Source of the DNA: a bacterium
Lineage (GTDB): Bacteria > Vulcanimicrobiota > Vulcanimicrobiia > Vulcanimicrobiales > SCRA01
Assembly (NCBI GenBank): GCA_004298675.1
Contig: SCRI01000053.1
Location: 1-54,882, forward strand
Direction: 5' to 3'
DNA: 54,882 bases
A program made the translations under genes and the position numbers. Positions 22,166 to 44,782 of the stretch are shown here, piece by piece. The notes beneath the pieces are model-generated. The model searched no databases and had not been told where the DNA came from. It saw nothing but the letters and a program-made list of their open reading frames with translations. Position 1 is the first letter of the stretch; each line of letters begins with the position of its first letter.

Positions 22166-22957
22166 CTATGCCTGCGCGGGTTCCTCGGCGTGCTGCTCCC
22201 CAATCGTCTCGGCGGTCTCGGTGTACGCTGCCTCGGCGCCCTCGCCCGCGGCATACGCGTAGGCGCTCTCGGTCTCCGTCTTACCCTCGACGATCGCGTC
22301 GGCGATCTTGCTGGCCATATAGCGGACCGAGCGGATCGCGTCGTCGTTGCCGGGTACCGGATAGTCGATCTCGTCAGGGTCACAGTTGGTATCGATGACG
22401 GCGATGATCGGAATGTGCAACTTGCGCGCCTCCATCACGGCGATCCGTTCCTTCTTCGGATCGATGATGAAGATGGCGTCGGGGAGGCGATGCATGTCTT
22501 TGATGCCGCCGAAGAACTTCTCCAGGCGCTCCATCTCGTCTTCGAGCTTGGCGACCTCCTTCTTGGGAAGGAGATCGAAGGTGCCTTGCTCCCGCATCCC
22601 CTCCAACTCGCGCAGGCGCGCAATGCGCTTCTGCATGGTCGAGAAGTTGGTCAGCGTGCCGCCCAGCCAGCGCTGGTTGACGTAGAAGGTACCGGCGCGC
22701 AGCGCCTCTTCCTTGATGACGTCCTGCGCCTGCTTCTTCGTGCCCACGAAAAGGATCACTTTGCCGGCTGCGGCCATCTGGTAGACGGCGTCGTAGACCT
22801 GGCGGAGCATGACGACGGTCTTGGCGAGGTCGAGAATGTGGATGCCGTTGCGCTCCTGGAAGATGAACGGCTTCATCCGTGGATTCCAACGGCGGGTCTG
22901 GTGCCCGAAGTGGACGCCGGCCTCGAGCAGCGCCTTCATCGAAACGTTGGCTGGCAT
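22166..22957 (-). CDS. rpsB: 30S ribosomal protein S2
   Basis: RpsB binds at the head-body junction of the small ribosomal subunit. The 263-aa product begins [26 protein letters not shown], with the S2 signature around residues 10-25, and includes the second family block near 160-185 ([20 protein letters not shown]). A 40-residue acidic Ala/Glu-rich tail extends past the usual end. The ATG at 22957 has AAAGGCGA just upstream; an in-frame ATG 19 codons earlier is not conserved and lacks a ribosome-binding site. It is the first gene of the housekeeping run and is preceded by a promoter at 23060-23068. Confidence 0.97.
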
Positions 22958-23059
22958 GGGTTCGCCTTTCTGGACCCCGGTTCGCCCCTCGTGGGCTCCC
23001 CGACTCGGGCCCATACCGCCCCCCGTCCATGGAGGGCGAAATGGGAATTCAACCGTTAG

Positions 23060-23068
23060 AGTATAGCA
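23060..23068 (-). promoter_or_regulatory. Extended -10 promoter of rpsB
   Basis: TGCTATACT on the minus strand fits an extended -10 (TGn plus TATACT). No good -35 hexamer is found 17 bases upstream, as is common for extended -10 promoters. Transcription would begin near 23053, leaving a GC-rich leader of about 95 bases before the rpsB start. Confidence 0.5.
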
Positions 23069-23094
23069 CGGCTGTCTAGGGGGCGGCCCGGCCT

Positions 23095-23736
23095 TCAGGC
23101 TCCCGCACGGCCTCGTTTCTCAAGCAGGAACCAGGTCAGATCGTCTTGCGGGGACTTGGCGTCCCGATGATACGCGAAGCCGTAGTTCACGAGTTCCAAC
23201 TCCGGATGACGATCCAACAGCTCGCCGGCGAAGTCCCGCTTGAAAAGCACGTCTTGATGGCCGCGATACGGGATGGAGACCGGCGTCGGATTGTAGTATT
23301 CGCAGACGCAGACGTAGCGCGCCGAACTTGCGGCCATCAGATCGTACACGATAGGCAACTTCTCCGGCGCGACGTGAATCAGCACACCCTTCGTGAACAC
23401 CAGATCCCAACGGCGTCGCGGAGCGAACTCCAACACGGACTGCTGGTACACCTCGACGCCGGGAAGCTTGCGCAGCTCGCCGGCAGCCGCGGCGTTGATC
23501 TCGACCGCAGCCAACTCCGCGTGCGGGACGAGCTGCCGCAGGGCGACGAGGTTCAGGCCGATATTCGCGCCAAGTTCGAGGATCGAGGTCACGTCGAAGG
23601 CGGTCCCGAGCACGTTTGAGAAAAATACGCGGCTCGAGGCCTGCAATGCCTCGCTGCTGTTTCGCGTACCATACTCGGTGCCGAAGGCGCCGCTCCAAAA
23701 CTGCTCTTGCACCGTCTCGTAGTGTGGCTCCGCCAT
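23095..23736 (-). CDS. Pseudaminic acid biosynthesis-associated methylase
   Basis: The 213-aa SAM-dependent methyltransferase matches the family found in Pse gene clusters. It contains [14 protein letters not shown] near the start, [18 protein letters not shown] (SAM motif I, about 51-68), [39 protein letters not shown] and [29 protein letters not shown]. The family's precise acceptor is not established; methylation of the nonulosonate or its derivative is the usual guess. The ATG shares one base with the stop of the preceding fusion gene. It is the last gene of the pse operon, and its stop is 27 bases before the rpsB promoter. Confidence 0.9.
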
Positions 23737-25796
23737 CAGGCCTCCGCGTTCGTGTTGCCGGCGCGGCCGTTGGGCGAGGCCAGCACCAAGAATTGCAGCG
23801 TCTTGAGCTCCTCCAGCTCGTCGTGCGTGACCCCCTTGAGCACGATCTTCCCTAGGTCGACGTCGGCGGCGGCTCCCGCCGGCGGCCCCACCACGGAGGC
23901 TAAGCGCACGTCCGGCGCCGCGGTCATCTTCGTAACCTCGTAGCCGGTCTCGTGGAAGAAACGCACGATCTCCGCTTTGGTGAAGAAGCGAATGTGCGTC
24001 ACGTCGAGCAGACCTGCCGGCTCATACCTCCATTGCCCCTGAGCGAGCCCTAGCAGCAAGAGGAGATTGCGGGTATTTGGGATGCTCGCGACGACCTGCG
24101 CGTCGGGTGCGAGCCATGGTCGCAGGCTCAGCATCGCAGCCCACGGATCGTAGAGATGTTCGAGCACGTCGGCGAGCACGACGGTGTCGATGCTGCCGGG
24201 CAGGATGCCCTCGGCTTTGAAATCCAAGTCCTCGAGCTTGCGTTCAAACACGCGGTCGATACGTCCAGCGGCAACCTGCGCGGCGGCGTGGTTCAACTCG
24301 ATGCCGAGCACGCGCGCGCCGGGATAGCGCTGCTTGATGGCCGCACCGGTGGCGCCGGTAAAACAGCCGACGTCCAGCACGCAGCGCGGCGCATGACCGA
24401 AGAGCGGGAAGAGCTCGCTGCGCGGCTGGTCGATGTAGCCGGCGTGGAGTTCCGTCCCCTGCTCCATCGAGAGCAGTTGCCAAGGATACGCCGGCTGACC
24501 GTCCGGATGCGCCTGCTCGGGAAGGCGAGCGTAGCGCGCCAGGGTCTCGGCGACGCGGGCCGCGGCGCCGCTCCCGGCATCGTAACGCGTACGCTGTGCG
24601 CGCATGCCGGCGAGCACGCCTTCTTTGAATCCTGGATTCGTGAGGATGCCGGCGACCGCCGCCGCCAGATCCGAATCCGTGGCCTGTACGATGCCGTCGT
24701 CCGCGCCGAAGAACGGCCCCAGCGTCCAACTGCGATCATCCCAGTAGTTGAGCGCGGGAACTCCGGCGATCATGGCCTCGATCGAGAGATTCGAGTCCAT
24801 GGAGACCACGACGTCGCTCGCGACGATCAAAGCCTCGGTGTCGGCGGTCGCGTAGCGGTAGGCATCGGGTGCGATACCGGTCTCCGCGGCTATGGCATCG
24901 AGGGCCGCCTTTCCGAAAGCGGCATTCGCCGGGCGATCCTTGATCACGACGTTGGCGCCGATGCCGGCGTCACGAATGATGCGCACCGCCTTCAGGAACG
25001 CACGCACCGTGCGCTCGTAGAGATCGCATATATCCTGGGCGCTCAGGCGAGCCGACCAAGTGGTACCGAAGAGCACCAGCGGCGCCTGCTCGTTCAAACC
25101 GTAATGGCGATAGACCTCGCGACGCACCGTCGCACGCTGTGCCACGAAGGCTTCGTACCGATCCCAGGCCGGATTGCCCACCACCGGCAGGCGCTGCTCC
25201 TCGATACCGAGATCCCGGTACGGCTCCGTACCCCGCGCTCCGAACGCCAGCATGGCATCGGCATGGAACTCACGATGAACGGTGTAGAGTTCGCCGAGAA
25301 TCTCGCTGTGCGCCAGATGGACGACCGGGATCTCGTGCGCTCGCGCCCAAAGGGCCGCCGTCTTCCCCAAGCTCGTCACGTCTTCGTTCACGACGACCAG
25401 CTCGATGGCGTGCTGGCGGCGTGCCACCTCCAGCGCCTCCACGAGCACGAGCTCCGGCAACAGCCGCTCCTCCAACTTGCGCGTCAGCAGGCCGCGGATG
25501 CGCTCGGCCTCGCACTCCAACTGCGCGCTGAACGCAGGCCACTGCTGTTGCTCCACGACGTGCGCGACCGTCGCCGCGCGGCGTCCGGCATCGGCGCGGA
25601 TCTCGTCGATCCGCCCTTCCGGCAGCAGCATCTCGAGCACCTGGACAGCGCCTCCGGCCTCCTGAATGGGGCGCGCAGAGGCGGCGTCGCTTCCCGCGAA
25701 TCCCGCCGGCATGAGAACCAGGCGGCGCCGGTGCGCTACGTAGTGCCGCAGGACGTCGGTGTTCTTGCCCCACAGCAGCGAGACGATGGCCTCCAC
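23736..25796 (-). CDS. Glycosyltransferase-like/methyltransferase fusion protein
   Basis: The 686-aa product has two parts. Residues about 1-430 look like a GT-B fold of the CDP-glycerol transferase/capsule type, with LVLFGTTWSA near 240 and a C-terminal nucleotide-sugar-like block, MDSNLSIEAMIAGVPALNYW near 333-352. Residues about 440-686 form a SAM methyltransferase (motif I VLDVGCFTG at 473-481, then DTVVLADVLEHLYDPWAAML and a RFFTKAEIVRFFHETGYEV segment). The GTG at 25796 is chosen: it directly follows the upstream gene's TAG and has GGGAG 9 bases before it; the frame extends 31 codons further but over the neighbour. In the pse operon it could transfer and methylate a sugar on flagellin or another surface glycan. 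The donor and acceptor are not known. Confidence 0.75.
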   Translation of the reverse strand: MEAIVSLLWGKNTDVLRHYVAHRRRLVLMPAGFAGSDAASARPIQEAGGAVQVLEMLLPEGRIDEIRADAGRRAATVAHVVEQQQWPAFSAQLECEAERIRGLLTRKLEERLLPELVLVEALEVARRQHAIELVVVNEDVTSLGKTAALWARAHEIPVVHLAHSEILGELYTVHREFHADAMLAFGARGTEPYRDLGIEEQRLPVVGNPAWDRYEAFVAQRATVRREVYRHYGLNEQAPLVLFGTTWSARLSAQDICDLYERTVRAFLKAVRIIRDAGIGANVVIKDRPANAAFGKAALDAIAAETGIAPDAYRYATADTEALIVASDVVVSMDSNLSIEAMIAGVPALNYWDDRSWTLGPFFGADDGIVQATDSDLAAAVAGILTNPGFKEGVLAGMRAQRTRYDAGSGAAARVAETLARYARLPEQAHPDGQPAYPWQLLSMEQGTELHAGYIDQPRSELFPLFGHAPRCVLDVGCFTGATGAAIKQRYPGARVLGIELNHAAAQVAAGRIDRVFERKLEDLDFKAEGILPGSIDTVVLADVLEHLYDPWAAMLSLRPWLAPDAQVVASIPNTRNLLLLLGLAQGQWRYEPAGLLDVTHIRFFTKAEIVRFFHETGYEVTKMTAAPDVRLASVVGPPAGAAADVDLGKIVLKGVTHDELEELKTLQFLVLASPNGRAGNTNAEA

Positions 25797-25798
25797 CG

Positions 25799-27070
25799 CT
25801 AGGCTCCCTCGGCGAACGCGCCGGCGGCGTCGAGCAGATCGCGCATGAGATCGTACTCCAAACCCGCGCCCAACGGAACGCCCGCGCATGTCAACGGTTC
25901 ACGCAAGGCCTCGTGCGCGTGCCACGACTGGACGAAGGCGTGCGCGGCACGATCGAGACCCCACTTGCGAACGAAGCTCCGCACGTCCGCGAAGTGCTCT
26001 GGCGCGAGCAGATCCCGGCCGTGCTCCGGCTCCACGAATGCCGCAAAAGCCGTGCAGAGATATGCCAGCATCAACAGGTTGCGGCGATGGCACAGATGCC
26101 CGTTCAACTCCTCCCGCCAGGCATCCAAACCACCGGGCAGCAACCCGGAGAGCGTGGCCGCAGTGAGGCCGCCGCTTGCCAGCGTCCGATTGAGGCGGCG
26201 GTTGCGCTCGAGCCACGCCGCGTTGGCGGCGCGATCGCTCTTACGTCGCAGCACCGCCATGAAACGTCCGGTCGTCTCCGTCGTCAGGTGCGCGAACAGC
26301 GACTCCTCGAGGAAGCGGCCGAACGCAAAGAGCGGTTCGTCGATCGCCATCCACGAGAGCAGGCGCTCCCAGAGGTAGCCCGACGCACGCGAGCCGTCGA
26401 GCCAGAAGTTACGGTTGCCGCCGCCGAGAACGGCGGCATACGGAACGACCGCGACCACCGCGAGCCCGAGCGCATCGGCCTGGTTGACCAGCTCCTCGGC
26501 CCGGACGCGCAGCGCATAGAGCTCCGTCTGCCGCTCCGCGGCCAGCAGATCGTCGACGGGCACGCCGTGAACGCGCGCCACCGCCTCGACGTGATCGAGG
26601 GCATGCACGTCAAAGATCATCACGCCGCCGGGGCGCACGACGCGAGCCCACTCGCGCAGCACGCCACGCCAGTGGGGAAAGTGTACCAGCACGTTGAGCG
26701 AGAGCAGCGTGTCGAAGGAGGCGTCGGGAAACGGCAAGCCGGCTAGGTCTGCCTGTAACAGCTCGATCGGCGCCGCGCCCGCCTCTTGCCGGCAACGATC
26801 GAGCATGGCCTGCGAGCTGTCGATCCCGGTGACCTGGAAGCCTTGCGCAAGTAGCGGAATGCTGCCGCGTCCGGTGCCGATGCCGACGTCGAGCACACGC
26901 CGGCCCTCGGCGTAACGCCGGCACAGCTCCACCTCGACGGCGTTCTTCAGCCGATTGGTGCCTTTGTTTTCGTGCATGCGGGCCGCGTACCACGCTACCA
27001 TCCTGGGATTGGTCCAGGCTTGGGTCTTCCACGCGATCAGCGACTCTTGGGGTCCGACAGCTGCGCCCAT
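25799..27070 (-). CDS. SAM-dependent methyltransferase in the pse operon
   Basis: A 423-aa protein. Residues 40-180 form a class I methyltransferase: motif I VLDVGIGTGRG at 59-69, VTGIDSSQAML near 78, LPFPDASFDTLLSLNVLVHF near 112 and a VVRPGGVMIFDVHALDH block. The second half (about 230-423) is helical and not recognised; it carries many Trp, His and Arg residues. The start ATG at 27070 has only a weak AAGAG before it. It lies 44 bases after pseI and is followed by the fusion gene, so it belongs to the pse operon and probably decorates the sugar or its carrier. Confidence 0.78.
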   Translation of the reverse strand: MGAAVGPQESLIAWKTQAWTNPRMVAWYAARMHENKGTNRLKNAVEVELCRRYAEGRRVLDVGIGTGRGSIPLLAQGFQVTGIDSSQAMLDRCRQEAGAAPIELLQADLAGLPFPDASFDTLLSLNVLVHFPHWRGVLREWARVVRPGGVMIFDVHALDHVEAVARVHGVPVDDLLAAERQTELYALRVRAEELVNQADALGLAVVAVVPYAAVLGGGNRNFWLDGSRASGYLWERLLSWMAIDEPLFAFGRFLEESLFAHLTTETTGRFMAVLRRKSDRAANAAWLERNRRLNRTLASGGLTAATLSGLLPGGLDAWREELNGHLCHRRNLLMLAYLCTAFAAFVEPEHGRDLLAPEHFADVRSFVRKWGLDRAAHAFVQSWHAHEALREPLTCAGVPLGAGLEYDLMRDLLDAAGAFAEGA

Positions 27071-27114
27071 CTCTTACGGTATCGCCCGTCCAGGCGGCAT
27101 GCTTGAGGGCGCGC

Positions 27115-28167
27115 TCACGCCAGCAGCTCCCACGCCAGCGGCGTGCCGCGTTTCACGTCGCGCGTTACTAGGCGACCTAAAACCTCCGGATAGTGCCGCG
27201 GCGCCAGCCCCTGCCCTGGGCGAATGACGCGAATATTGTCGGCCGTCAAGGCCTCGCCCGCACGCAGGTCGCGCGTCACGAAGATGGAGCGGCGAAAAAC
27301 CAGCGATTGCCGCTCCGCCGTGGTGGGACCGTAGCGCACGCCGCCCAACGCCTGCCAGGCCCGCTCGGTCTCTGCGGCCAACGCGGCCAGCTCCTGCGGC
27401 TCCAGCGAAAACGCCGCATCCACGCCGCCGTCGGCCCGCCGCAGCGTGAAGTGCTTCTCGATCACAGCCGCCCCGAAGGCTACGGCGGCAACGGCGACTC
27501 CAATGCCCAGCGTGTGGTCCGAGAGACCGACCTGGACGTCGAACAGCTCGCGCAGATGTGGGATGGTCCGTAGATGAGAGTCAGCGGGACTGGCCGGATA
27601 CGTGCTCGTGCATTTGAGCAGCACGATATCTTCGCAGCCTTCGGCGCGGATGGCACGCACTAGGTCATCGATCTCGGCGACCGTGGCCATCCCAACCGAG
27701 ACGATGACGGGTTTCCCGGTGCGCGCCACCAAGCGGATCAATGAAAGATCGGTGCTCTCGAACGAGGCGATCTTGTAACACGGCGCGTCCAGCCGTTCCA
27801 ACAATTCGACGGCACCGGCATCGAAGGGCGTGCTGAGCGGAATCAAGCCACGTGCGCGGGCCCGTTCGAAGATCGGCTCGTGCCACTCCCACGGAGTGTA
27901 GGCCTCTTGGTAGAGCTCATACAGCGTGCGGCCGCACCACGGGCTCGCGGGGTCCGAGATGCGAAACTCGGGGCGGTCACAGTCGATCGTCAGCGTATCC
28001 GCCGTGTAGGTCTGCAGCTTGACGGCATGAGCCCCGGCGGCGGCGGCGGCGTCGACGAGATCGAGCGCGCGCTGCAGCGACTGGTTGTGGTTGCCCGACA
28101 TCTCCGCGATCACCAGGGGCGGCATGTGCCTGCCCACCGTCTTGCCCGCGATCTCGAAATCTCTCAT
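27115..28167 (-). CDS. pseI: Pseudaminic acid synthase
   Basis: PseI condenses 6-deoxy-AltdiNAc (2,4-diacetamido-2,4,6-trideoxy-L-altrose) with phosphoenolpyruvate to make pseudaminic acid. The 350-aa product is an NeuB-family TIM barrel: PPLVIAEMSGNHNQSLQRALDLVDAAAAAGAHAVKLQTY at 16-54, STPFDAGAVELLERL, KIASFE near 137, the KCTSTYPASPAD segment near 187, and GLSDHTLGIGVAVAAVAFGAAVIEKHFTL near 217-245. Residues about 285-350 are the antifreeze-like SAF domain. It overlaps pseH by 4 bases (ATGA) and is the sixth step of the pathway in this operon. Confidence 0.95.
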   Translation of the reverse strand: MRDFEIAGKTVGRHMPPLVIAEMSGNHNQSLQRALDLVDAAAAAGAHAVKLQTYTADTLTIDCDRPEFRISDPASPWCGRTLYELYQEAYTPWEWHEPIFERARARGLIPLSTPFDAGAVELLERLDAPCYKIASFESTDLSLIRLVARTGKPVIVSVGMATVAEIDDLVRAIRAEGCEDIVLLKCTSTYPASPADSHLRTIPHLRELFDVQVGLSDHTLGIGVAVAAVAFGAAVIEKHFTLRRADGGVDAAFSLEPQELAALAAETERAWQALGGVRYGPTTAERQSLVFRRSIFVTRDLRAGEALTADNIRVIRPGQGLAPRHYPEVLGRLVTRDVKRGTPLAWELLA

Positions 28168-28724
28168 GGCGCTTCACCTCCGAACGCGGAACGCTCGAGC
28201 CGAACTTTCGACTCGAGCCATCGCTCACGCCCGAGCCCGAGTACCTTGACATCCTCGAAGCAGCTGCCCTTGTGCGCATGACGCGGCAGCGTCGCCTCGT
28301 CTTGAAAGCCGAGCTTGTGATGAAACGCCAGACTGCGCGCGTTGCTCGCCAGCACTTCCGCGCGCAGCTTCCGCAGCCCGATCCGCTCGAAGGCATAGGC
28401 TAACGCCAACACTCCCAGCTTCGAGCCTAGCCCGCGCGGCGGCTCCGCGGCAGCCAGATAGAACCCCCATGAGCCACTCTCCCGGCCGGCTTGGATGTCG
28501 ACGAAGTTCACGACGCCCAAGGGTTCGTCCGCGCACTCGAAGAGCAACAGCAAGGCGCTCTCCATCGTTTGCACGCGCTCGAACCACGTCACGTGCTCCA
28601 CTCGCGAGATGAGGTGATCCGTATACATCCAGCGCCGGATATGCGGGGCATTGCGCCAGGTCAACACCAGGTCCAGGTCCGCGCGCGTCAGCGGCCGCAA
28701 GCGGTAGGCATCAGCGCGTGCCAT
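28164..28724 (-). CDS. pseH: UDP-4-amino-4,6-dideoxy-N-acetyl-beta-L-altrosamine N-acetyltransferase
   Basis: PseH adds an acetyl group from acetyl-CoA to the C4 amino group made by PseC. The 186-aa GNAT protein starts with LRPLTRADLDLVLTWRNAPHIRRWMYTDHLIS, a typical PseH beginning, and has the GNAT core: GVVNFVDI, then RGLGSKLGVLALAYAFERIGLRKLRAEVLASNARSLAFHHKLGF. AAGGAGAG lies about 9 bases before the ATG. The start lies inside the pseG end (14-base overlap), and the stop overlaps pseI. Confidence 0.92.
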   Translation of the reverse strand: MARADAYRLRPLTRADLDLVLTWRNAPHIRRWMYTDHLISRVEHVTWFERVQTMESALLLLFECADEPLGVVNFVDIQAGRESGSWGFYLAAAEPPRGLGSKLGVLALAYAFERIGLRKLRAEVLASNARSLAFHHKLGFQDEATLPRHAHKGSCFEDVKVLGLGRERWLESKVRLERSAFGGEAP

Positions 28725-29808
28725 CCACGAGCTCTCCTTCCATCAATGTGCAGATGGCATCCAGCCAACGGGCACCGGCGCCGCGCATCAATGCCAGCGC
28801 TGCCCGCGACATGCGGCACACCTGCCCGGGCTCGCGCAGCGCCTGCACCAACGCACCGTACAGGCGCTCGCGCACGGACTCGTCTGGCTCGCCGAGATTC
28901 CAGGCCGCGCCCGCCGCCGCCACGTTGCGGGCCACCTCCGCCTGATTCTCCGCCAGCACCAGCATAATGGAGGGCAGACCCAAGGCACAGCGTTCCCACG
29001 CCGTGGTACCGCCCGCGCCGATCGCGAGATCCGCCGCACCCATGAGATCCGCCATGTGCTCGACGTAGCCGTGCAGCGTAACGTTCGGCATCTCCGCCGC
29101 TCTACGTGCCACGCTCTCGCGATGGGGATTCGACGGCGGCACGACCACGTCGATGGCAAGGTCTGGCGCGGCGAGCGCAGCAACCGCGGCGAGCGCCGCA
29201 GCGGTGAGGTTGCGCGGGTCGCTGCCGCCAAGCGTGATCAACAGCCGCCGGATGGCTCCGTCCCGCGGCACCGCGGCCCGAGCGGCTAGCATGAACTCTT
29301 CGCGCAGCAACGCGTACGCAGGGCCTAGCCACAGGCGCGTATGCGGCGCTACCAATCCGCGATAACGTGCGGCGGCGTCGGCATGCAGGCCCTGATCCAG
29401 CAAGCCTTCGCAGACGTGCGGCCGGTCGGCTAAATCGTCGATCGCCACGATACCCCGCACGCGTGGGCGCAATGCCGCCTCCCAACGCGCGTCCAACGCA
29501 TAGTGATCGACGATGAGCCAGCCCTGCTCTTCGCCGATGGCCGCCAGCGTCAGCACCGCATCCTCGGTCAGCGCCGCGCGCAGGCGGGCGAGCTGTCCGG
29601 ACGCGCTAGCGGCCGGCCCGATCCCCGGAAGCCGCCGCACCAGCCAGCCGCGCTCCTCGATCAGCGCAGTAATGTCTCCGGGCAGGCGGCGCGCGATGAA
29701 GGTGGCTTCGATGCCTCTGCGCCGCAACGCCTGCGCCACCGTCAGGCAGCGCATGACGTGCCCGGTTCCAAGGTAGCGCGACGAATCCGCCCGCACGAAC
29801 GCGCGCAT
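28711..29808 (-). CDS. pseG: UDP-2,4-diacetamido-2,4,6-trideoxy-beta-L-altropyranose hydrolase
   Basis: PseG removes UDP from the intermediate, giving the free altropyranose for PseI. The 365-aa GT-B fold protein starts with the conserved GTGHVMRCLTVAQALRRRG segment near residues 14-32, has LLITLGGSDPRNLT near 190-203, and the catalytic/nucleotide block MADLMGAADLAIGAGGTTAWERCALGLPSIMLVLAENQ near 255-290. It starts one base after the stop of the cytidylyltransferase gene and overlaps pseH. Length is near the family's usual 300-370. Confidence 0.93.
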   Translation of the reverse strand: MRAFVRADSSRYLGTGHVMRCLTVAQALRRRGIEATFIARRLPGDITALIEERGWLVRRLPGIGPAASASGQLARLRAALTEDAVLTLAAIGEEQGWLIVDHYALDARWEAALRPRVRGIVAIDDLADRPHVCEGLLDQGLHADAAARYRGLVAPHTRLWLGPAYALLREEFMLAARAAVPRDGAIRRLLITLGGSDPRNLTAAALAAVAALAAPDLAIDVVVPPSNPHRESVARRAAEMPNVTLHGYVEHMADLMGAADLAIGAGGTTAWERCALGLPSIMLVLAENQAEVARNVAAAGAAWNLGEPDESVRERLYGALVQALREPGQVCRMSRAALALMRGAGARWLDAICTLMEGELVDGTR

Positions 29809-29809
29809 G

Positions 29810-30529
29810 CTAGGCGCCCAACGTCTTCTGCCGCACGTGGCGATTGATCTCGGTCAGCTCCGGCCTGCGCCGCAGCAGCGCCAGTATCTCAGAGGTGGTA
29901 AAGAGCGCATCCTCTTGCCACAGCGCCTCGTAGACGGCCGTGATGAAGCGCAGATCCTCGGCCACGTCCAGCGTCCAGCGCAGCGCCGAGAGATCGCTCC
30001 CCTCGCGCGCGACGTTTTCGAGCGCGAAGCGTTCCGGATGGCCGTAGAAGTACGGCGTCACGTGTTCGCGCTCGTAGGGTTGCCGCGCCTGGGCGCATGC
30101 CAGCTCCAGCGCCACCGCGCGCACGACTTCCACGTCCAAACCGCGCGGATAGGTTCGAACCAGCGTGTTGCTGACGTAATCCGCTTGCGGCGCCTGCAGA
30201 AAATGGGTGTAGACGCGCTCCACGACGCGCGGATCCAAGAGCGGGCAATCCGCGGTGATGCGCACGACGGCCTGCGCGCGCAGCTCGCGCGCCGCGCCGC
30301 AGAAACGTTCGAGCACGTCGTCTTCGCTGCCGCGAAATACGTGTGCGCCGCAACGCTGTGCCTCGCTAGCCACCGCGTCGTCTGCGGCGGCCACGCTCGT
30401 GGCTACGGCCACGGCTTCGAGTCCCGCAGCCGCTTGCACACGGCGCAGCACGTGCTCCAAGACGGTGCGCCCGCAGATGCGCCGGAGCACCTTGCCCGGC
30501 AGGCGCGAAGAACCCATGCGCGCCTGCAC
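29810..30529 (-). CDS. SpsF-like cytidylyltransferase (probable CMP-pseudaminic acid activation step)
   Basis: The 239-aa nucleotidyltransferase resembles SpsF of Bacillus spore polysaccharide synthesis: it begins QARMGSSRLPGKVL, where classical PseF proteins have a PARGGSKR-type start. A VVRITADCPLLDP segment near 89-101 carries the metal-binding acid, and a YPRGLDVEVV stretch near 125 follows. It lies where PseF is expected, between pseC and pseG, and no other cytidylyltransferase is seen, so it probably makes CMP-Pse. Start is GTG 30529, five bases after the pseC stop; AGGGGC is 11 bases upstream. Its stop almost touches pseG. Confidence 0.82.
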   Translation of the reverse strand: MQARMGSSRLPGKVLRRICGRTVLEHVLRRVQAAAGLEAVAVATSVAAADDAVASEAQRCGAHVFRGSEDDVLERFCGAARELRAQAVVRITADCPLLDPRVVERVYTHFLQAPQADYVSNTLVRTYPRGLDVEVVRAVALELACAQARQPYEREHVTPYFYGHPERFALENVAREGSDLSALRWTLDVAEDLRFITAVYEALWQEDALFTTSEILALLRRRPELTEINRHVRQKTLGA

Positions 30530-30534
30530 GATCG

Positions 30535-33779
<3,245 letters not shown>

Positions 33780-33832
33780 CGGCGCGGCTACGGGGAAACG
33801 TCTTTGAACACGGCGAACGGACCCCTCCGACG

Positions 33833-34819
33833 ATGCGCCGCTATTTCACGCATTTCGGCTTGGCCCGGGATCCATTTCTCGACACGGCCGATCCCGAGTT
33901 CTTCTGCGAGACGCCGCACGTGCGCGAAGCGATCGGCCGACTGGAATCGTCGGTCGCCGACGGCCGCGGCCTCGTCGCCGTCACGGGGCCGGTCGGCGCG
34001 GGAAAGACTTCGCTCTCGGCGGCGTTCGAGTTGCGTTGCCTCAAAGACGACGCGATCACCTTCGGGAAGATCCTAGACCCCACGTTCGGCGGCGAGACCG
34101 AGATGCTCATCGCCATCGGCAAGGTCTTCGGCGTCAACTTGCCGCCACGCTCGAGCGCCTCGCTCAAGAACGCGTTGAAGAACCTCTTCTTCGACATGGG
34201 CGTGCTCGAGAACCGCACCATCATCCTCATCGTCGACGAGGCGCAACTGCTGGAGCCGTTTGGCTTGGAGATCCTGCGCCTCTTACTCAACTACCAGGTA
34301 CCCGAAAAGAAGCTGCTCAACGTGCTGCTCTTCGGCCAACCGGAGTTGGACGAGCGCATCCGCGCCAAGCAGAACGTGGCCGACCGCGTGGATCAGTGGA
34401 TCGAGTTACGCGCGCTCGATCCCTCGGAGTTGACGCTGCTGCTGCAGCACCGCCTCCATCGCGCCGGCCTGCCCGAGGGGCAGCGCATCTTCAGCGACGA
34501 GGCGCTGGCCGGCGTCGTCCACGCTAGCGGCGGCTACCCGCGGCGCGCCATCGTGTTGGCCCATGCGGCCATGGCGGCGGCGGCGGAGGCCGGCGCGGGC
34601 GGCGTCTTCACGGAGCACCTGGAAGAGGCTCTGCGCCGCACGGCGACCAGGGCGATCCCATTCGTCAAAGATGAGCCCGCTGCGGACACAGCGGCCACCG
34701 AGCCGGCCTCCGCCGCGCCCGCCTCCGAAGCTGCGCTCGAGGCCGCGCGCAAACCACAGGGCTGGTGGGCGGGCCTACTCCAGCGGCTCTTCCCCAGCAC
34801 CGCCGGCGAGCGGAGATAA
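33833..34819 (+). CDS. ExeA/MshM-like AAA ATPase
   Basis: The 328-aa product is an AAA_22-type ATPase similar to the general secretion protein ExeA and MSHA pilus MshM. It begins RRYFTHFGLARDPFLDTADPEFF, the common N-terminal pattern, has Walker A GPVGAGKTS at 52-60, Walker B IILIVDEAQ at 130-138, sensor LLFGQPELDER near 165-175, an arginine-bearing segment, and a lid domain to about 275. The last 50 residues are Ala/Glu/Pro-rich, ending in a tryptophan- and leucine-bearing helix. No peptidoglycan-binding domain is present. A strong ribosome-binding site is not seen. ExeA-type proteins assist assembly of envelope-spanning machines; the partner here may be the following unknown protein. Confidence 0.85.
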   Translation: MRRYFTHFGLARDPFLDTADPEFFCETPHVREAIGRLESSVADGRGLVAVTGPVGAGKTSLSAAFELRCLKDDAITFGKILDPTFGGETEMLIAIGKVFGVNLPPRSSASLKNALKNLFFDMGVLENRTIILIVDEAQLLEPFGLEILRLLLNYQVPEKKLLNVLLFGQPELDERIRAKQNVADRVDQWIELRALDPSELTLLLQHRLHRAGLPEGQRIFSDEALAGVVHASGGYPRRAIVLAHAAMAAAAEAGAGGVFTEHLEEALRRTATRAIPFVKDEPAADTAATEPASAAPASEAALEAARKPQGWWAGLLQRLFPSTAGERR

Positions 34820-34829
34820 CGCGGTAACG

Positions 34830-36383
34830 ATGGAGCACCGCGAGGTCAACGCGGAGCAGAGCGCCGACATGCGGCTCGTGGAACTGCAACGCAAGCGCTT
34901 GGAGCTTGCGGAGCGGCCGCGGCGTTGGGCGCCGGACCCCAAAGCGCTGGAAGAGAGCTTCGACGGCGCCGCCCCGGTCGACGTCGCGACCCCACAACTC
35001 CAAGAGGCGGTCATCCTGGGTTCGCTCCACGTCTCGCCCGCGCGCGGCCTCATCCCCGGCGCCTTGGTCACCGTCAGCCTCGTCGCCGAGAACGCGGGTG
35101 GCGCTCCCGCCGCCGTGCGGGCACGCCTGACCGTCTCGCTCGACGCCGGTTACCGCCCGGGCACCACCACGCTCGACGGCCGCGAGCTATCCGACGTGGA
35201 CGAGGGCAGTGCGGCTCTGGGACCGGCGGGCGCCGACCTGGGCACGATCGCGCCGGGCGAGCGGCGCCGTCTGGCTTTGGCGGTGAAATTGGGCGCGGGG
35301 CCCGGGCCGTTTCGTGCCACTGCCACGCTCGACGCCGGCGGCGCCCCGGCGCTGGGCGTACGGGCGCTGGAGGTGGAGCGCAGCGGCACCAGCGCCTTCG
35401 CGCAAGCACTCGCGCAGCAGCTCGAGCCGCCATCCTACGAGCTGGAGTTGGACGAGGAGCTCGTGTACGAAGCCGCCGATGCGGCACTCTCGGAGCAGAC
35501 GCCCCCGGTCCTGACTCCGGAGCCGGAGCCCGAGCCCACGCTCGAACCCGAGTCCACCGTGGCCTGGGCCGCCCCCGCAGCCGCGCCAGCAGCCGCACCC
35601 GCAGCCGCACCCACCACCGCGTCTGAAAGCGAAGCCAGCGCGGAGAGCGCCCCAGCCGTCACGCCCGCGCCACCCGCCGAAACGGCGCAGGTGCCTGCCG
35701 GCTTGGTGATCTGGAACACCATCGACGTCTCCACGGTACGGTTTCTCGGCCGGGTGCTCAAGGACGGTTCGGCATTAGGGCTGCTCGGTCACTTTATGGT
35801 GGCCAATGGGCTGAGCGCGCGCTTCGCGCCGCTGAACTCCGGCGGCGGAGACTCGCTGGGTCTGGGAAAGTTCTCCGCCGATCAAGCGGGGCTGCTCAAC
35901 CGGCTCATGCTGCAGGCGCGCATGAAACGGGCGACCTCGCTCGAGCACTACGCCACGGCTCCACCCTTGGAGAGTCTCGCGCGAATCGCGGAACTCCCCT
36001 CCGTAGATACCGCCGCACTCGACGCCGCACTGCCGCCCGCACAAGCGGGGAGCCTGGTACTCTACACGACGCTGAGCCCCTCCGAGGTGTCCTTTCTCCA
36101 GCGCACGGCCTCTACGGAGAAGACGCCGCCGTTCGTGCGCAACCGCCAGATCACCGCGGCACTGTTGCCCTGCCACGCCCGCCGCGGTAGCGACGAGGAC
36201 GGGCCGGCGGGCGCTCTGTTGGCGGCCTACGCCGCGGCGAGCCTGGCGGCGATCACACGTTTCTTCGTCCAACTGCGCCTCTCGCCGTCACTGCTCCCGA
36301 CCACGATTCGCGACGACGAGCTGGAGCGCGCAGCCTCCGCGCTGCTGCTTGGTCTGGAAGAGACGCTGCGTCAGAGTCCATGA
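34830..36383 (+). CDS. Large protein of unknown function with Ala/Pro-rich linker
   Basis: I do not recognise the full-length family. The 517-aa product has an N-terminal charged helix (1-45), a CARDB/repeat-like beta domain (about 65-185: VSPARGLIPGALVTVSLVAENAG, GPFRATATLDAGG), an acidic segment (about 195-240), an Ala/Pro-rich linker (about 245-290), and a C-terminal mostly helical domain (about 290-517). The open frame extends upstream of the ATG at 34830 but over the ATPase gene, so that part is rejected. No signal peptide or membrane helix is seen. It sits 10 bases after the ExeA-like ATPase gene and overlaps the next glycosyltransferase gene by 4 bases. Confidence 0.7.
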   Translation: MEHREVNAEQSADMRLVELQRKRLELAERPRRWAPDPKALEESFDGAAPVDVATPQLQEAVILGSLHVSPARGLIPGALVTVSLVAENAGGAPAAVRARLTVSLDAGYRPGTTTLDGRELSDVDEGSAALGPAGADLGTIAPGERRRLALAVKLGAGPGPFRATATLDAGGAPALGVRALEVERSGTSAFAQALAQQLEPPSYELELDEELVYEAADAALSEQTPPVLTPEPEPEPTLEPESTVAWAAPAAAPAAAPAAAPTTASESEASAESAPAVTPAPPAETAQVPAGLVIWNTIDVSTVRFLGRVLKDGSALGLLGHFMVANGLSARFAPLNSGGGDSLGLGKFSADQAGLLNRLMLQARMKRATSLEHYATAPPLESLARIAELPSVDTAALDAALPPAQAGSLVLYTTLSPSEVSFLQRTASTEKTPPFVRNRQITAALLPCHARRGSDEDGPAGALLAAYAAASLAAITRFFVQLRLSPSLLPTTIRDDELERAASALLLGLEETLRQSP

Positions 36384-37156: not shown

Positions 37157-37512
37157 CGGCGTATATCCACGACCGCTGCGCGCGTCTCACGCGCTCGCAG
37201 CCGCGCGGCCAGCATGCGGCGCGCACGCTTGGCGCGCGCGATCTGACGCCCGAGATCGTTGCGGCGGGCGGTCAGCATTTGCTGGCGACGCCGGTTTTCG
37301 CGTTCGAACTCCACCACGCGGCGCGCGGCGCCGGCCCTGGTCTGGTCATCGGCTCCTTCGAGCGACCAGGCAATGGCCGCCAGCACCTGCCGGATGCCGG
37401 CGATGGCCGTGGCAAAATCGTCGTGCCTGCGCTCGGCAATCGCGGCTTCGCTCAAGCGCCCCAGTTCATCCAGGGCGTCGAGTTGCGCCTCCAGTTCCTC
37501 CGGAACCAGCAC
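37153..37512 (-). CDS. FliT-like flagellar protein
   Basis: The 119-aa, almost entirely helical product is likely a coiled-coil dimer. Its position directly after fliS (start GTG 37512, two bases past the fliS stop) is where the small FliT-type export chaperones lie. Two helices (about 5-60 and 65-119, the latter Arg-rich) fit that size and shape, but the sequence has no motif that proves it. A basic C-terminal region (KRARRMLAARLRARE) differs from classical FliT. The last 4 bases overlap the converging glycosyltransferase gene. Confidence 0.5.
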   Translation of the reverse strand: MLVPEELEAQLDALDELGRLSEAAIAERRHDDFATAIAGIRQVLAAIAWSLEGADDQTRAGAARRVVEFERENRRRQQMLTARRNDLGRQIARAKRARRMLAARLRARETRAAVVDIRR

Positions 37513-37514
37513 GG

Positions 37515-40374: not shown

Positions 40375-41601
40375 CTACTCGGTATCGGCCGCCGGGGACC
40401 CGCCCTTGAGGCTCGCCAACCACCCGCGCAATTCCCGCCGGGAGGCGCGAGCCAACCCCGTGGGATCTCGGCCTTGCGCCCCCACCAGCGCCTCCCGGGC
40501 TCCAAGACCGTCGAATCGAGGCGGCTCTCCGGAGACGCTCACGTAGACCTCGGCTGCCTGCTCCTCCGGGATGCCCTCGCGCTCCAACAGCCGCTCGATG
40601 CGCCGCCGCAGTGTCGCTTCACCCAGCCCCGCTTGGTCCCAGATGACGAGATCGACCGGATCCTCGGGCGCGAACGCCCTAGCGTACCGCCGGACGAACG
40701 CCGAAGCGGTTTGCCAGTCTGCCTCCTCCGCCAGCACCGCGTGGAGGCGCCCCTGACGTGGCGGCGGCAGCTTGGGCAACGTGGAGGGGGCGTAGCGTTC
40801 CAAGGAGACGCGGTGGCGCTGGGGATCGAAGGGCCGCGCCAGGGCCTGCGCGGTCTCGTAGCCCCCGCGGTTGACGGGATCGAGGCCGTATTTGGCGGAG
40901 AAGAGTCCCCAGTTGCGTTCCATCGTCGCCGCATAGTCGATTTTCGCCGCGGCAAACGTGCGGTGCCCGTAGTGATGGATGAAGACGTCGTCGGCCATCC
41001 AGACCTTGTAACCGGCTAGGCGCGCCCGCATGCAGTAGTCGTCATCCTCGAAGTTACCGGTACCGAACGTCTCGTCCAAACCCCCGATCGCGGTGATCAC
41101 GCGCCGGTCGATCAGCATGCAGAAGCCGATGACGCGGTCAAGATACGTCCCACATCCGTGCAGCTCGCTGCGCCGCCGCGCCGCAAAGCGATGCATCTCT
41201 TCGATCGACTGATACGGCACGTCGAGCTGCTGGACGCCCGCGACCTTGTTGCTGCGCGGGCCGACGAGGCCGATCTCGACGTCGCGCTGAGCGGCAGCCA
41301 GCATATCCTCCAACCAGTGCTCCGTGACCACCACGTCGTTGTTCAAGAGCATCACGTAGCGGCCGCGGCTAGCGGCGATACCCTGATTGCAGCCGCCGGC
41401 GAAGCCACGGTTCTCGGAGTTGTAGATCACCGTCGCGTCGCCTAGCGTACGCAGGTACTCTACGGTCGGAGCCTCGCTGCCGTTGTCGACGACGATCAAC
41501 TCGCACGGCAGCTTGGTGAAGCGCCGCACGCTCTCGAGCGTGATGCGCGTGTACTCCAGCGCATTCCACGTCAAGAGCACCAAACTTACCAAGGGAATCA
41601 T
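40375..41601 (-). CDS. Family 2 glycosyltransferase
   Basis: The 408-aa protein has an N-terminal GT2 domain: VSLVLLTWNALEYTRITLESVRRF near residues 5-28, LIVVDNGSEAPTVEYLRTL near 36-54, YVMLLNNDVVVTEHWLEDML (DxD-like NND) near 84-103, and NFEDDDYCMRARLAGYKVWMADDVFIHHYGHRTF near 183-216, with ED(D) general base and metal-binding His. The roughly 150-residue C-terminal part is unknown. ATG 41601 overlaps the stop of the GT2-TPR gene; an open frame 78 codons upstream is an out-of-frame reading of that gene. It is between the flagellin-linked glycosyltransferase and flaG. Confidence 0.82.
   Translation of the reverse strand: MIPLVSLVLLTWNALEYTRITLESVRRFTKLPCELIVVDNGSEAPTVEYLRTLGDATVIYNSENRGFAGGCNQGIAASRGRYVMLLNNDVVVTEHWLEDMLAAAQRDVEIGLVGPRSNKVAGVQQLDVPYQSIEEMHRFAARRRSELHGCGTYLDRVIGFCMLIDRRVITAIGGLDETFGTGNFEDDDYCMRARLAGYKVWMADDVFIHHYGHRTFAAAKIDYAATMERNWGLFSAKYGLDPVNRGGYETAQALARPFDPQRHRVSLERYAPSTLPKLPPPRQGRLHAVLAEEADWQTASAFVRRYARAFAPEDPVDLVIWDQAGLGEATLRRRIERLLEREGIPEEQAAEVYVSVSGEPPRFDGLGAREALVGAQGRDPTGLARASRRELRGWLASLKGGSPAADTE
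40382..40408 (-). promoter_or_regulatory. Weak sigma-28-like promoter before flaG-fliD
   Basis: GCCGATAC (40382-40389) inside the end of the preceding glycosyltransferase gene matches a sigma-28 -10 box. The -35 at the right spacing is CAAGGGCG (40401-40408), with only three matches to the consensus. It could drive flaG-fliD-fliS-fliT, but the box also falls in a normal Ala-Asp-Thr coding context, so chance is quite possible. Confidence 0.3.
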
Positions 41602-43397
41602 GGCCGCACCGCCAGCGCCACGTCGGCGACGCGGCGCGCCTCGTCGCTGCGGCCAAAGGCCAAGAGGCGCCCCGCCAAGTTTGCGAGCGCGCCCTGCGAA
41701 GACGCGGCGCTCGTACCCGCGCCAGCGCGACAGATCGACTCTGCTACCCGTTCCAAGTGCTCCACGCTGCGCGCCGCCACGGCCGTGAGGATAGCCGCCC
41801 CGCGTGGGTCGCCGGCGCCCAAACGGTAGGCGCACAGCACACGCAGGCGGTCTTCGTCGACGCCATCGGAAGAGAGTTGCGCGAGGAGATCGGCGGCTTC
41901 CCCAAATGCATCGTCCTGAAGAGCTTTCCCAATGCGCTGACGCAGTTGCGCGTCGGGCGAAAGCTCGGTATCCGCAGCCATCAGAGCGGTGGTTGCGCGC
42001 GCTAGTTCCGCCGCTGCTATGTTGGCGGCAAGCTGTGCGCGCGCTTCGAGCAGGGTTTCACGGTCGCGAGCTTGCCCCACGCGCGCCAGCGCTTGCTCCA
42101 GGACTTGCGTGGCGTCGGCGTGGCGTCCACGCCGGAGCAGGTAGTTGACGTTTTGCAACGCGGTATCTGCGGCGGGGTACCGCTGATAGGCTTCGTCGAA
42201 GACGCGCCCGGCGTCGTCGATGCGGCCGGCCTGCTCCAGGACGTGGCCGAAGTTGATGCGCAGCGCCGGCGCAGCGGGGGCGCGGGCTATTCCCTCCTCC
42301 ATCACCGCGATCGCCTCGTCGTGGCGCTGCAGCGAGGAGAGGAAGACGCCCAGCTCGCAGCGTGCTTTCCACTGGTACACTTGATCGTCGATCACCGCGA
42401 AGTTCTTGGGATCGACCCCCTCGGCGCAGGCGGCGCGAAAAGCCGCGATCGCTTCCTCCGCCCGCCCTGCTTTGCGCAACGCCTGTCCGAGCGAGAACAG
42501 CGCGTTGGGATAGCCGGGAGAACGCTCCAGCGATTCGCGCGCGCGCTGCTCGGCCAGCTCGTACTGCTCTTCCTGACCGTAGATCTCGGCGAGGACCGCC
42601 AAGCCGTGCGCGATGATGCCGCGCTTGTCGCCGGGTAAGGCGCATGTGCGCATGCGCTCGAAGGGCTCCTTGGCCTCCGCGCGCCGCCCCATGAATGCGT
42701 AGGTCTGTCCAAGGCCGTACCAGTGGAAGGGATCATCGGGATGCTTCTCGACTGCCGCCAGCGCGATGGCGAGGTTGCGTTCGGGCTTCTTCTTCTGTTG
42801 AACGATCGAGTTAAGGTAGCCGCTGTGCCGAATGTAGGCCTCTATCGTTGCCGACCGCAAGACCTTCCCCGGGAGCGTGCTGCGCGGGTCGCTCACATAT
42901 TCATGGAGCGGCTGGACGAACTCAACCTCAGGATCATTGGGGAAGAGACGCAAGACCAAGTGCGAGGTCTGCCCGAGGCCGCCGTTCTCATCGACCTCGT
43001 TGATACAGTGAAAATTGAAGCCGATACCGCGTGGCTCGCTGGCTACGATTGCCCGCACGAGCGGGATGCTCTCCTGCTCCAACACCTCGTCGGCATCGAG
43101 GAAGAGTACCCAACGCCGCGTGGCCAGCCGCAGCGAGGCGTTGCGTGCGGCGGAGAAGTCGTTGGCCCAGGGCACCTCGCGAACGCTAGCGCCGTAAGCG
43201 CGCGCGATCGCGATGGTCCGATCGACGGAGCCGGTGTCGACGATGCAGATCTCATCGGCAACCGCGCAGACGCTGCTCAGACACCTGTCGAGCAGCGCCT
43301 CCTCGTCGCGAACGATCATGCAGAGCGAGAGACCCGGCTGCGGGTTGCGGCGCGATCCCGTCGCGGGGCGACCTGCGCCGACGAAATGAACCGGCAT
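41598..43397 (-). CDS. Family 2 glycosyltransferase with C-terminal TPR domain, linked to flagellin
   Basis: The 599-aa product has a GT2 catalytic domain at about 20-230: LSLCMIVRDEEALLDRCLSSVCAVADEICIVDTGSVDRT, FSAARNASLRLATRRWVLFLDADEVLE with the DAD metal motif, and a WxGLGQTYA segment opening the TPR part. Residues about 230-440 are TPR-like (HWYGLGQTYAFMGRRAEAKEPFERM; ALFSLGQALRKAGRAEEAIAAF; FGHVLEQAGRIDDAGRVFDEAYQRYP), and about 450-599 are helical repeats. It starts 95 bases after the flagellin gene. GT2 plus TPR proteins are known flagellin glycosyltransferases in other bacteria; that role is inferred here. Confidence 0.85.
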   Translation of the reverse strand: MPVHFVGAGRPATGSRRNPQPGLSLCMIVRDEEALLDRCLSSVCAVADEICIVDTGSVDRTIAIARAYGASVREVPWANDFSAARNASLRLATRRWVLFLDADEVLEQESIPLVRAIVASEPRGIGFNFHCINEVDENGGLGQTSHLVLRLFPNDPEVEFVQPLHEYVSDPRSTLPGKVLRSATIEAYIRHSGYLNSIVQQKKKPERNLAIALAAVEKHPDDPFHWYGLGQTYAFMGRRAEAKEPFERMRTCALPGDKRGIIAHGLAVLAEIYGQEEQYELAEQRARESLERSPGYPNALFSLGQALRKAGRAEEAIAAFRAACAEGVDPKNFAVIDDQVYQWKARCELGVFLSSLQRHDEAIAVMEEGIARAPAAPALRINFGHVLEQAGRIDDAGRVFDEAYQRYPAADTALQNVNYLLRRGRHADATQVLEQALARVGQARDRETLLEARAQLAANIAAAELARATTALMAADTELSPDAQLRQRIGKALQDDAFGEAADLLAQLSSDGVDEDRLRVLCAYRLGAGDPRGAAILTAVAARSVEHLERVAESICRAGAGTSAASSQGALANLAGRLLAFGRSDEARRVADVALAVRP

Positions 43398-43492: not shown

Positions 43493-44782
43493 TTAGCGGA
43501 GCAGTGTCAGCACGCTCTGCGGTTGCTGGTTCGACTGCGCCAGGACGGCCGTGCCAACCTGGACGAGCACCTGCAAGCGGGTGAAGTTCGTGGTCTCCTG
43601 ACCGACGTTCACGTCGCGGATCGACGACTCCGAAGCCTGGAGGTTGGTCTGGGTGATCTGGTCGTTACCCGCGTCCTCGTTGAGGCGGACGATGGTCGCA
43701 CCCAGTGCGGCGCGCTGCGAGAGCAGCGAGTCGAGTGCGTGGTCGACCTGACCGATCGCGTCCTCGGCGCCGATCGACGGATTCACCGACGTACCGGAGG
43801 CGAGGTTGATGTTGCCGATGCGCAGCGTCGAGGCGTTAGTGGCCTGAAGGCCGAGCTGAACGACGTCGCCCTCGCTGGCACCCGACTGGAAGTTGAACAC
43901 CGGGTTGCTCGAGGCGGCAACGAACTGCGAGACCTTGACGAAGGTCGTCGCACCGACGTCGCCCGAGGTCACCGTGTTCAGGTTGATGCTCAACGCCTGC
44001 TCCTGGCTACCCGCGAACGCCGACAGTTTGATCGTCTGCGCGTTCACCTGATTGCTGGTGGCGCTGGTCGAGACCAGACCCAACACCGTGGTCGTGTTGG
44101 TCGAGGAGTCGAACTCCGAGACTTGGATGGCGATCGTCGGCTCGCTCACCGACTGACCGTTGACCGTGACGAGCGTCGTGCCGGTCGTCACGACCTGCAG
44201 CTCGATGGTGCCGTCGCTAGCCGAGACACCGACCGCCGCGGACGACTGCGCCGCCGTGGACAGGGCCACGGTGGTGACGAGCTGGCCGGGGCTAGCCGTC
44301 AAGAACGAGTCGGCCGTCAGCGTGGCAGTGGCGGACTGCGCCGGCTGGAAGCCGGAGTGGGTGCCGTCGAGTAGGTTCTGCCCGTTGAAGTTCGTGTTGC
44401 CGGAGATCGTGTTGACCTCCTGGATCAACTGCTGAACTTCGGTCTGCAGATTGGCCTTGTCGGTCGGCGACGAGGTGTCGTTCGCGGCCTCGACGGCCAG
44501 CGAACGGATGCGCTGGAGGATATCCGTGGTCGTCTGCAGGGCGCCTTCCGCCACCTGCGCGGCGTTGTTGGCGTTCTGGACGTTCTGGACAGCCTGCTGG
44601 AAGCCGTTGACCTGTGCCTGCAGCGCCTCGGAGATGGCCAGACCAGACGGATCGTCGGCGGCGGTATTGATGCGCAGGCCGCTGGAGAGGCGGCTCACCG
44701 ACGTATGGAGGGCGTCTTGGTTCCGCGAAAGATTGAGATTCGCGGTATTCGCCAGAAGATTGTTGGCGATCGAGAGGGACAT
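43493..44782 (-). CDS. fliC: Flagellin
   Basis: The filament subunit, 429 aa. The N-terminal D0/D1 region is highly conserved: LSIANNLLANTANLNLSRNQDALHTSVSRLSSGLRINTAADDPSGLAISEALQAQVNGFQQAVQNVQN, then an SGNTNFNGQNLLDG loop near residue 135. The C-terminal D1/D0 region runs from about 340 (IGQVDHALDSLLSQRAALGATIVRLNED) to LQVLVQVGTAVLAQSNQQPQSVLTLLR. The middle 190 residues are Thr/Ser/Val-rich D2/D3, a likely O-glycosylation target. AAGGAGG lies 10 bases before the ATG and overlaps CsrA-type GGA motifs; the promoter is at 44855-44881. Only one flagellin gene is in the window. Confidence 0.96.
   Translation of the reverse strand: MSLSIANNLLANTANLNLSRNQDALHTSVSRLSSGLRINTAADDPSGLAISEALQAQVNGFQQAVQNVQNANNAAQVAEGALQTTTDILQRIRSLAVEAANDTSSPTDKANLQTEVQQLIQEVNTISGNTNFNGQNLLDGTHSGFQPAQSATATLTADSFLTASPGQLVTTVALSTAAQSSAAVGVSASDGTIELQVVTTGTTLVTVNGQSVSEPTIAIQVSEFDSSTNTTTVLGLVSTSATSNQVNAQTIKLSAFAGSQEQALSINLNTVTSGDVGATTFVKVSQFVAASSNPVFNFQSGASEGDVVQLGLQATNASTLRIGNINLASGTSVNPSIGAEDAIGQVDHALDSLLSQRAALGATIVRLNEDAGNDQITQTNLQASESSIRDVNVGQETTNFTRLQVLVQVGTAVLAQSNQQPQSVLTLLR

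Follow-up and report, generated by a model that had tools for sequence, protein, structure and literature searches.

How flagellin is decorated in bacteria that lack a Maf transferase is largely open, with FlmG providing one answer. The question is raised again by the locus studied here, a window of 54,882 nucleotides (the whole stretch of DNA that was analysed), in which a protein combining a glycosyltransferase (GT) with a methyltransferase is encoded among genes for the synthesis of pseudaminic acid (Pse). What does this fusion protein do, and is it a replacement for Maf, as the first-pass annotation of the window had proposed?

The fusion gene is part of a tightly packed pse operon

The gene belongs to a run on the minus strand in the order pseB, pseC, pseF-like, pseG, pseH, pseI, MT2, fusion, TIGR03587 methylase and then rpsB. 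For PseB, PseC, PseG, PseI and TIGR03587 the curated cut-offs of NCBI were applied.

31704..32690, minus strand: PseB dehydratase (TIGR03589, 534 bits, above curated cut-off)
30535..31707, minus strand: PseC aminotransferase (TIGR03588, 537 bits, above curated cut-off)
29810..30529, minus strand: PseF-like CTP-dependent cytidylyltransferase (PF02348; below the TIGR03584 cut-off)
28711..29808, minus strand: PseG hydrolase (TIGR03590, 277 bits, cut-off 154)
28164..28724, minus strand: PseH-like GNAT acetyltransferase (Pfam)
27115..28167, minus strand: PseI, pseudaminic acid synthase (TIGR03586, 484 bits, cut-off 340)
25799..27070, minus strand: MT2, SAM methyltransferase with an extra all-helical C-terminal domain, 423 aa (Pfam, predicted structure)
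23736..25796, minus strand: GT-B glycosyltransferase/SAM methyltransferase fusion, 686 aa, GTG start at 25796, stop at 23736
23095..23736, minus strand: Pse-biosynthesis-associated methylase TIGR03587 (268 bits, cut-off 112)

The fusion gene is separated from MT2 by 2 bases and its stop overlaps the start of the TIGR03587 methylase gene by one base (TGATG), in agreement with the co-translation that had been claimed for it. The earlier description of the operon had the pse genes and the methylase right but omitted MT2, which lies directly upstream of the fusion gene in nearly every relative locus. In the predicted structure of MT2, matches were found for the methyltransferase half only; its all-helical domain of about 140 residues matched nothing in structure or family libraries. 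No second cytidylyltransferase, including the CDP-alcohol or CDP-amino-acid types, was recognised among the operon genes, and no other candidate for a Pse transferase was found in the operon. A longer PseB ORF reaching to 33278 is over-extended, as the PseB match starts at ORF residue 197. Of note, the pse operon region (22166-33278) runs directly into rpsB, an unusual site for a glycosylation cluster, and this linkage is kept in several relatives from the Eremiobacterota (L008, L009, L011, L013).

The fusion is a genuine single gene with a methyltransferase half and a GT-B half

The reading frame contains no internal stops, and a Shine-Dalgarno-like GAGGGAG is present upstream of its GTG. A 717-aa version starting at an upstream ATG is unsupported, since the homologues start at the same "M..AIVSLLW" as the 686-aa form. 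Since 7 genomes of the class and about 20 betaproteobacterial ones share the fusion, it is no assembly artefact; together with the ORF, Pfam matches and the structural model described below, this bears out the two-part protein seen in the first-pass annotation. Its domains are:

24501..25796, minus strand: N-terminal GT-B domain, residues 1-432 (conserved residues and AlphaFold model)
23770..24440, minus strand: C-terminal class I SAM methyltransferase domain, about residues 453-675 (motifs VLDVGC and DVLEHLYDPW)

The C-terminal half is a class I SAM methyltransferase, with Methyltransf_23 (E=3e-15, residues 457-622), _12, _11 and _25 all above the Pfam cut-off and 3cc8 as closest solved structure (E=1e-32). 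Searches of phages and plasmids returned stray matches to the methyltransferase domain only. In genome G026, the methyltransferase half occurs once more as a free-standing gene (51% identical) that adjoins the fusion gene (L013:8717-9544). An antisense open frame of 548 aa (24156-25802, plus strand) crosses the fusion gene and is probably a by-product of coding sequence with high G+C.

Residues 1-430 have no significant Pfam match of their own. The fold prediction and structural search that had been suggested for them gave a confident result: the AlphaFold model, based on an alignment of 27 homologues (pLDDT 87, pTM 0.84), predicts a GT-B fold, i.e. two Rossmann-like domains with the nucleotide-sugar site in the C-terminal one, which places the protein among the GT-B glycosyltransferases. 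The nearest solved structures found by Foldseek are UDP-GlcNAc 2-epimerases and related GT-B enzymes (TM 0.55-0.58), the best matches being GT-B-fold UDP-sugar enzymes with E down to 1.6e-11. A sequence search of the PDB with the GT-B profile yielded nothing convincing, and a viral fold library only generic glycosyltransferases. Invariant or nearly so are N137-E138, H163, T246-W247, K286-D287-R288 with P289, D328, S335 and E340. The fold matches had also prompted us to consider an active epimerase of the NeuC/WecB type; the residues conserved in this family in particular (NE138, KDRP, TTW) and its fusion to transferases speak against that reading.

The GT-B domain scores far below all curated family cut-offs. 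Among the 27 family members, 20 match NF046086 (BFO_1060 glycosyltransferase, a Tannerella-named GT family), although the best value of 4e-10 is far below its cut-off, and weak family-level matches were obtained to Epimerase_2 (1e-6) and TIGR04396. Glyphos_transf (PF04464) is matched weakly by three of the 27 (best E=2e-4) and Capsule_synth marginally by a single one (E=0.09); the window protein itself does not match PF04464 and hence does not reach the Pfam gathering cut-off for a TagF-like CDP-glycerol transferase. A distant relative (L042) is the sole one above the PF04464 cut-off (3e-12). The label "capsule/CDP-glycerol-transferase-like" was thus a fair guess at the N-terminal half, but membership in these families does not hold at their cut-offs.

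CMP-Pse is the likely donor

The GT-B CMP-ulosonate transferases KpsC, KpsS, WbbB, KrkA and KpsS1 (GT107, GT99, GT140, GT118) carry an HP motif at the CMP site, and in CMP-using GT-B transferases this motif binds CMP (PMC12887879). KpsS1 (GT118), as cited in that paper, provides a precedent for a Pse transferase. Among the retaining Kdo/Pse transferases, GT99, GT107 and GT140 combine the HP motif with QXXXD. This combination was not found in the fusion: the QXXXD nucleophile of the Kdo transferases is not conserved in the family, the first strand of the C-terminal GT-B subdomain reading T-T-W-x-A without a conserved Q or D. At the HP position most family members have R-P and two have HP, i.e. 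the KDRP motif (residues 286-289) is nearly invariant and the two read KGHP instead. KDRP occupies the K-x-H-P position of TagF/KpsC-type CMP/CDP enzymes. Because of this motif, the surrounding pse operon and the lack of another recognisable cytidylyltransferase among its genes, CMP-Pse is the likely donor. We infer this specificity for a CMP-sugar in a domain whose best structural matches are UDP-sugar epimerases and glycosyltransferases. As some relatives carry synthases of the NeuB type rather than the PseI type, the donor may also be another nonulosonate.

The structural matches to UDP-sugar enzymes and the weak PF04464 matches would also suit a GT-B domain that decorates Pse itself, by attaching to it either a UDP-sugar-derived hexose or, as has been proposed for CD0244/FgtA, a phospho-group taken from a CDP-compound, with subsequent methylation by the other half. 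There are precedents in FgtA (PA1091), a fusion of GT2 with a TagF-like phosphotransferase that acts in flagellin glycosylation beside a separate methyltransferase (PMC10714395, PMC11833859), and in Fgi-1, which extends Pse in Aeromonas (PMC7874193). However, the operon has neither a recognisable cytidylyltransferase for a CDP-alcohol or CDP-amino acid nor a further enzyme to transfer Pse, and the fusion gene tracks PseI within the class (see below), which makes such a role unlikely.

The fusion gene co-occurs with PseI and with flagella

The class was sampled with 117 genomes including that of the window (3.0 Mb, 98.5% complete), and the fusion is present in seven of them. PseI above cut-off was found in five genomes, all of which carry the fusion (Fisher p=1e-7, a value that ignores shared ancestry); in the sixth fusion-bearing genome PseI is truncated at a contig end beside the fusion, and the seventh has NeuB-type synthases. 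PseI above its curated cut-off is accompanied by flagellin in the window's own genome too, the combination by which we recognised Pse-dependent flagellin glycosylation. Flagellin is encoded in 7/7 fusion-bearing genomes versus 50/117 overall (p=0.002, again ignoring shared ancestry). Full-length relatives are found in Eremiobacterota and Betaproteobacteria (Hydrogenophilales, Gallionellaceae, Rhodocyclus tenuis, Xenophilus), where nonulosonate-synthase genes lie beside the fusion at about 26 distinct loci that share its architecture. The Rhodocyclus order was sampled with 300 genomes, of which 47 have PseI above cut-off, and the regions around their pseI genes were searched; in 16 of the 47 a long form of the fusion (about 1,590 aa) is encoded no further than about 14 kb from pseI. 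The long-form gene is followed after 108-350 bp by the start of fliC in ten distinct genomes, while more than half of the long-form loci show no fliC within the available downstream room. The distant relative in the Actinomycetota contig L042 sits between a NeuB-family gene and fliC. In the window, the operon lies about 15 kb from fliC, next to rpsB and outside the flagellar operon.

Because the synthase genes adjoin, all PseI-positive genomes of the class carry the fusion and fliC is near in Betaproteobacteria, the fusion is very probably part of a Pse flagellin glycosylation system. The acceptor might alternatively be a surface polysaccharide (O-antigen, capsule or exopolysaccharide), the flagella being coincidental. 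Pse does occur in capsules and O-antigens elsewhere (PMC7591256), some PseI-positive Betaproteobacteria lack both the fusion and a nearby flagellin, and a conserved divergent cluster with GT2-like and ATPase genes adjoins the pse genes in the window and in relatives. Yet the flagellated state of all fusion-bearing genomes of the class, the fliC starts within 350 bp in ten betaproteobacterial genomes and the position of the L042 relative render a polysaccharide acceptor rather improbable. The divergent cluster itself (about 33040-37757, plus strand), present also in G001, G002 and G054, comprises a GT2-like frame inside ORF 31746-33779 as well as genes for an AAA_22 ATPase, for a protein of 606 aa that matches no Pfam family and for a GT2-like protein.

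Absence of Maf does not single out the fusion gene

No Maf was found in the window's own genome, and the absence noted in the first-pass annotation thus extends to homologues elsewhere in the genome. The fusion protein has no match to PF01973 (MptE-like) or PF20157 (Maf_flag10_N) and is not a Maf by these domains, although it is proposed to act in the same pathway, i.e. the addition of nonulosonates to flagellin. The PF01973 search detects a real bacterial Maf (L129 carries both Maf domains), whereas PF20157, unmatched in the own genome, is likewise unmatched in 14 control genomes and therefore says little. However, Maf is absent from all 117 genomes of the class and hence its absence does not point to the fusion gene. 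The suggested check for co-occurrence with pse genes in genomes lacking Maf confirmed the link to PseI, but Maf is missing throughout the class regardless. In PseI-positive Betaproteobacteria, Maf was found in 0/16 genomes with the fusion versus 4/31 without (p=0.28, a weak test). We therefore rejected the absence of Maf as evidence for the role of the fusion. Nor would pseudaminylation without Maf be a first, since FlmG is already known to do so (PMC7591256); systems of the FgtA type are a further example of flagellin glycosylation that bypasses Maf.

A GT2-TPR protein is a stronger candidate than the fusion for linking glycan to protein

The fliC region of the window encodes:

43493..44782, minus strand: flagellin FliC, presumed final acceptor
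41598..43397, minus strand: GT2 and TPR protein beside fliC, candidate protein-linking enzyme
40375..41835, minus strand: GT2 glycosyltransferase in the fliC-fliD cluster (maximal ORF; true start probably near 41600)

TPR repeats bind flagellin in FlmG and in Maf-1 (PMC7591256, PMC13317340). Of the 50 flagellated genomes in the class, 45 encode a member of the GT2-TPR family; 38 of the 45 have neither PseI above cut-off nor the fusion, and in 40 genomes the GT2-TPR gene lies within 3.5 kb of a flagellin gene (34 of them without the fusion). Because it is found beside fliC and in 45/50 flagellated relatives, mostly without pse genes or the fusion, the GT2-TPR protein is a better candidate than the fusion for the protein-linked step and probably the general flagellin-linking enzyme here. 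The GT2 part of the window protein weakly resembles SunS peptide glycosyltransferases. At two betaproteobacterial PseI loci without the fusion (L188, L206), a GT2-TPR-like protein of 980 aa adjoins fliC instead, which suggests another arrangement for the same task.

These findings bear on the direct substitution of Maf, in which the GT-B domain would move Pse from CMP-Pse to Ser/Thr of flagellin and the other half would methylate it. Maf is missing from the own genome and from 29 of the 30 fusion-bearing genomes (the other has one marginal match), fliC adjoins in ten betaproteobacterial genomes, and FlmG sets the precedent of a GT-B enzyme capable of direct transfer (PMC7591256). On the other hand, no TPR or other flagellin-binding module is recognised in the fusion, in contrast to FlmG and Maf-1, the GT2-TPR protein occupies the place beside fliC in flagellated relatives, Maf is lacking class-wide anyway, and relatives are fused to chain-extending glycosyltransferases. 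Hence, what survives of the original proposal is the link to Pse-dependent flagellin glycosylation, through the pse genes and, across relatives, the flagellin genes; transfer directly onto flagellin in place of Maf is improbable.

Long forms in Betaproteobacteria point to the building of a glycan chain

The betaproteobacterial long form carries three more modules after the GT-B/methyltransferase part: the first is GT2-like, the second is another GT2, and the last, at the C-terminus, has no Pfam match but reads like a GT-B transferase. The second GT2 module is the one matched by the window gene 40375-41835, i.e. a module fused to the protein in Betaproteobacteria is encoded in the fliC-fliD cluster here. 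Xenophilus (L032) encodes the chain in two adjacent genes, one for a 690-aa GT-B/methyltransferase protein and the next for a protein whose final 900 residues align colinearly with the remainder of the long form (about 39% identity). A quick tree, for which distant long relatives served as root, places the short forms of Eremiobacterota within the long betaproteobacterial ones; therefore, the short form of the window has probably lost its tail or had it split off, an event that may have followed a transfer from one phylum to another. The copy of the fusion protein used in the tree (which prints as 704 aa) and in the module comparison probably carried alignment gaps; a few trimming points are shifted by them, with no evident effect on matches or conclusions. 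The fusion with GT2 and GT-B modules points to the building of a chain, with the fusion enzyme adding a later sugar.

A modular route to methylated Pse on flagellin

Our preferred reading, to which we assign a probability of roughly one half, is that the protein is a nonulosonic acid (Pse) transferase joined to a methyltransferase in cytoplasmic flagellin glycosylation, which places Pse onto a flagellin-bound sugar, followed by methylation. We infer donor, acceptor, methylation site and order of the steps, the acceptor being the weakest point of the model, as follows. The pse operon would make CMP-Pse. The GT2-TPR enzyme would bind flagellin and attach the first sugar, which the neighbouring GT2 perhaps extends. 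The N-terminal GT-B domain would then transfer Pse from CMP-Pse to the flagellin-bound sugar. Methylation of the added residue or the glycan before export would fall to the C-terminal domain, probably together with the methyltransferases encoded on either side. The first sugar would thus be placed by GT2-TPR in all these bacteria, the pse operon and the fusion adding a methylated Pse cap in a few. It is also conceivable, though we consider it doubtful, that this is a new family of CMP-nonulosonate transferases whose betaproteobacterial members form a five-module polypeptide (GT-B, methyltransferase, GT2, GT2, GT-B) building and methylating the whole nonulosonate-containing glycan of flagellin, whose counterparts in Eremiobacterota would be encoded by separate genes.

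The proposed order of GT2-TPR before the fusion follows the same modular principle as FgtA (PA1091) of P. aeruginosa, CD0240-CD0244 of C. difficile (type A/b-type flagellin glycan) and GtfS. In the former two, GT2 places the core sugar, which the TagF-like enzyme and a methyltransferase decorate (PMC10714395, PMC11833859); as in the window, GT2, a TagF-like GT-B and a methyltransferase occur together, and as in the fusion family GT modules are joined in one protein. They differ in the proposed transfer of phospho-(di)methylthreonine from a CDP-compound, whereas the pse genes of the window supply CMP-Pse, and the methyltransferase is separate from FgtA but fused to the GT-B domain here. GtfS of Tannerella forsythia (Tanf_01245) is a GT-B Pse transferase that is encoded directly after pseI and caps the S-layer glycan (PMC6120980, PMC6388019). 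It shares with the fusion the GT-B superfamily, the nonulosonate and the gene position 3' of pseI, but is a stand-alone protein of 445 aa without methyltransferase, acting on an O-glycan that is not flagellar. FlmG of Caulobacter likewise has a GT-B domain, a Pse donor pathway and a flagellated host without Maf; by domain layout, however, it consists of TPR and GT without a methyltransferase, while the fusion has a methyltransferase and no recognised TPR and so lacks the FlmG-type layout of N-terminal TPR and C-terminal GT-B. In Shewanella flagellin, O-methyl groups are found on a nonulosonate-linked residue, Maf-like genes being present (PMC3765264). The fusion probably represents a new family of enzymes within an established type of pathway, FlmG, CD0244, PA1091, GtfS and KpsS1 having been compared by description only.

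If true, the preferred reading would provide a second Maf-free route for nonulosonates, shared by a phylum with hardly any cultured members and by Betaproteobacteria (among them a named strain of Rhodocyclus tenuis), and a new GT-B family with a ready-made methylating fusion for producing methylated Pse conjugates. It would also assign a likely role to large proteins known only by generic domain matches. Still larger fused transferases of about 1,970-2,550 aa, with extra inserted modules, are encoded at L028:9818-15973, L029:9953-15877 and L082:1320-8987.
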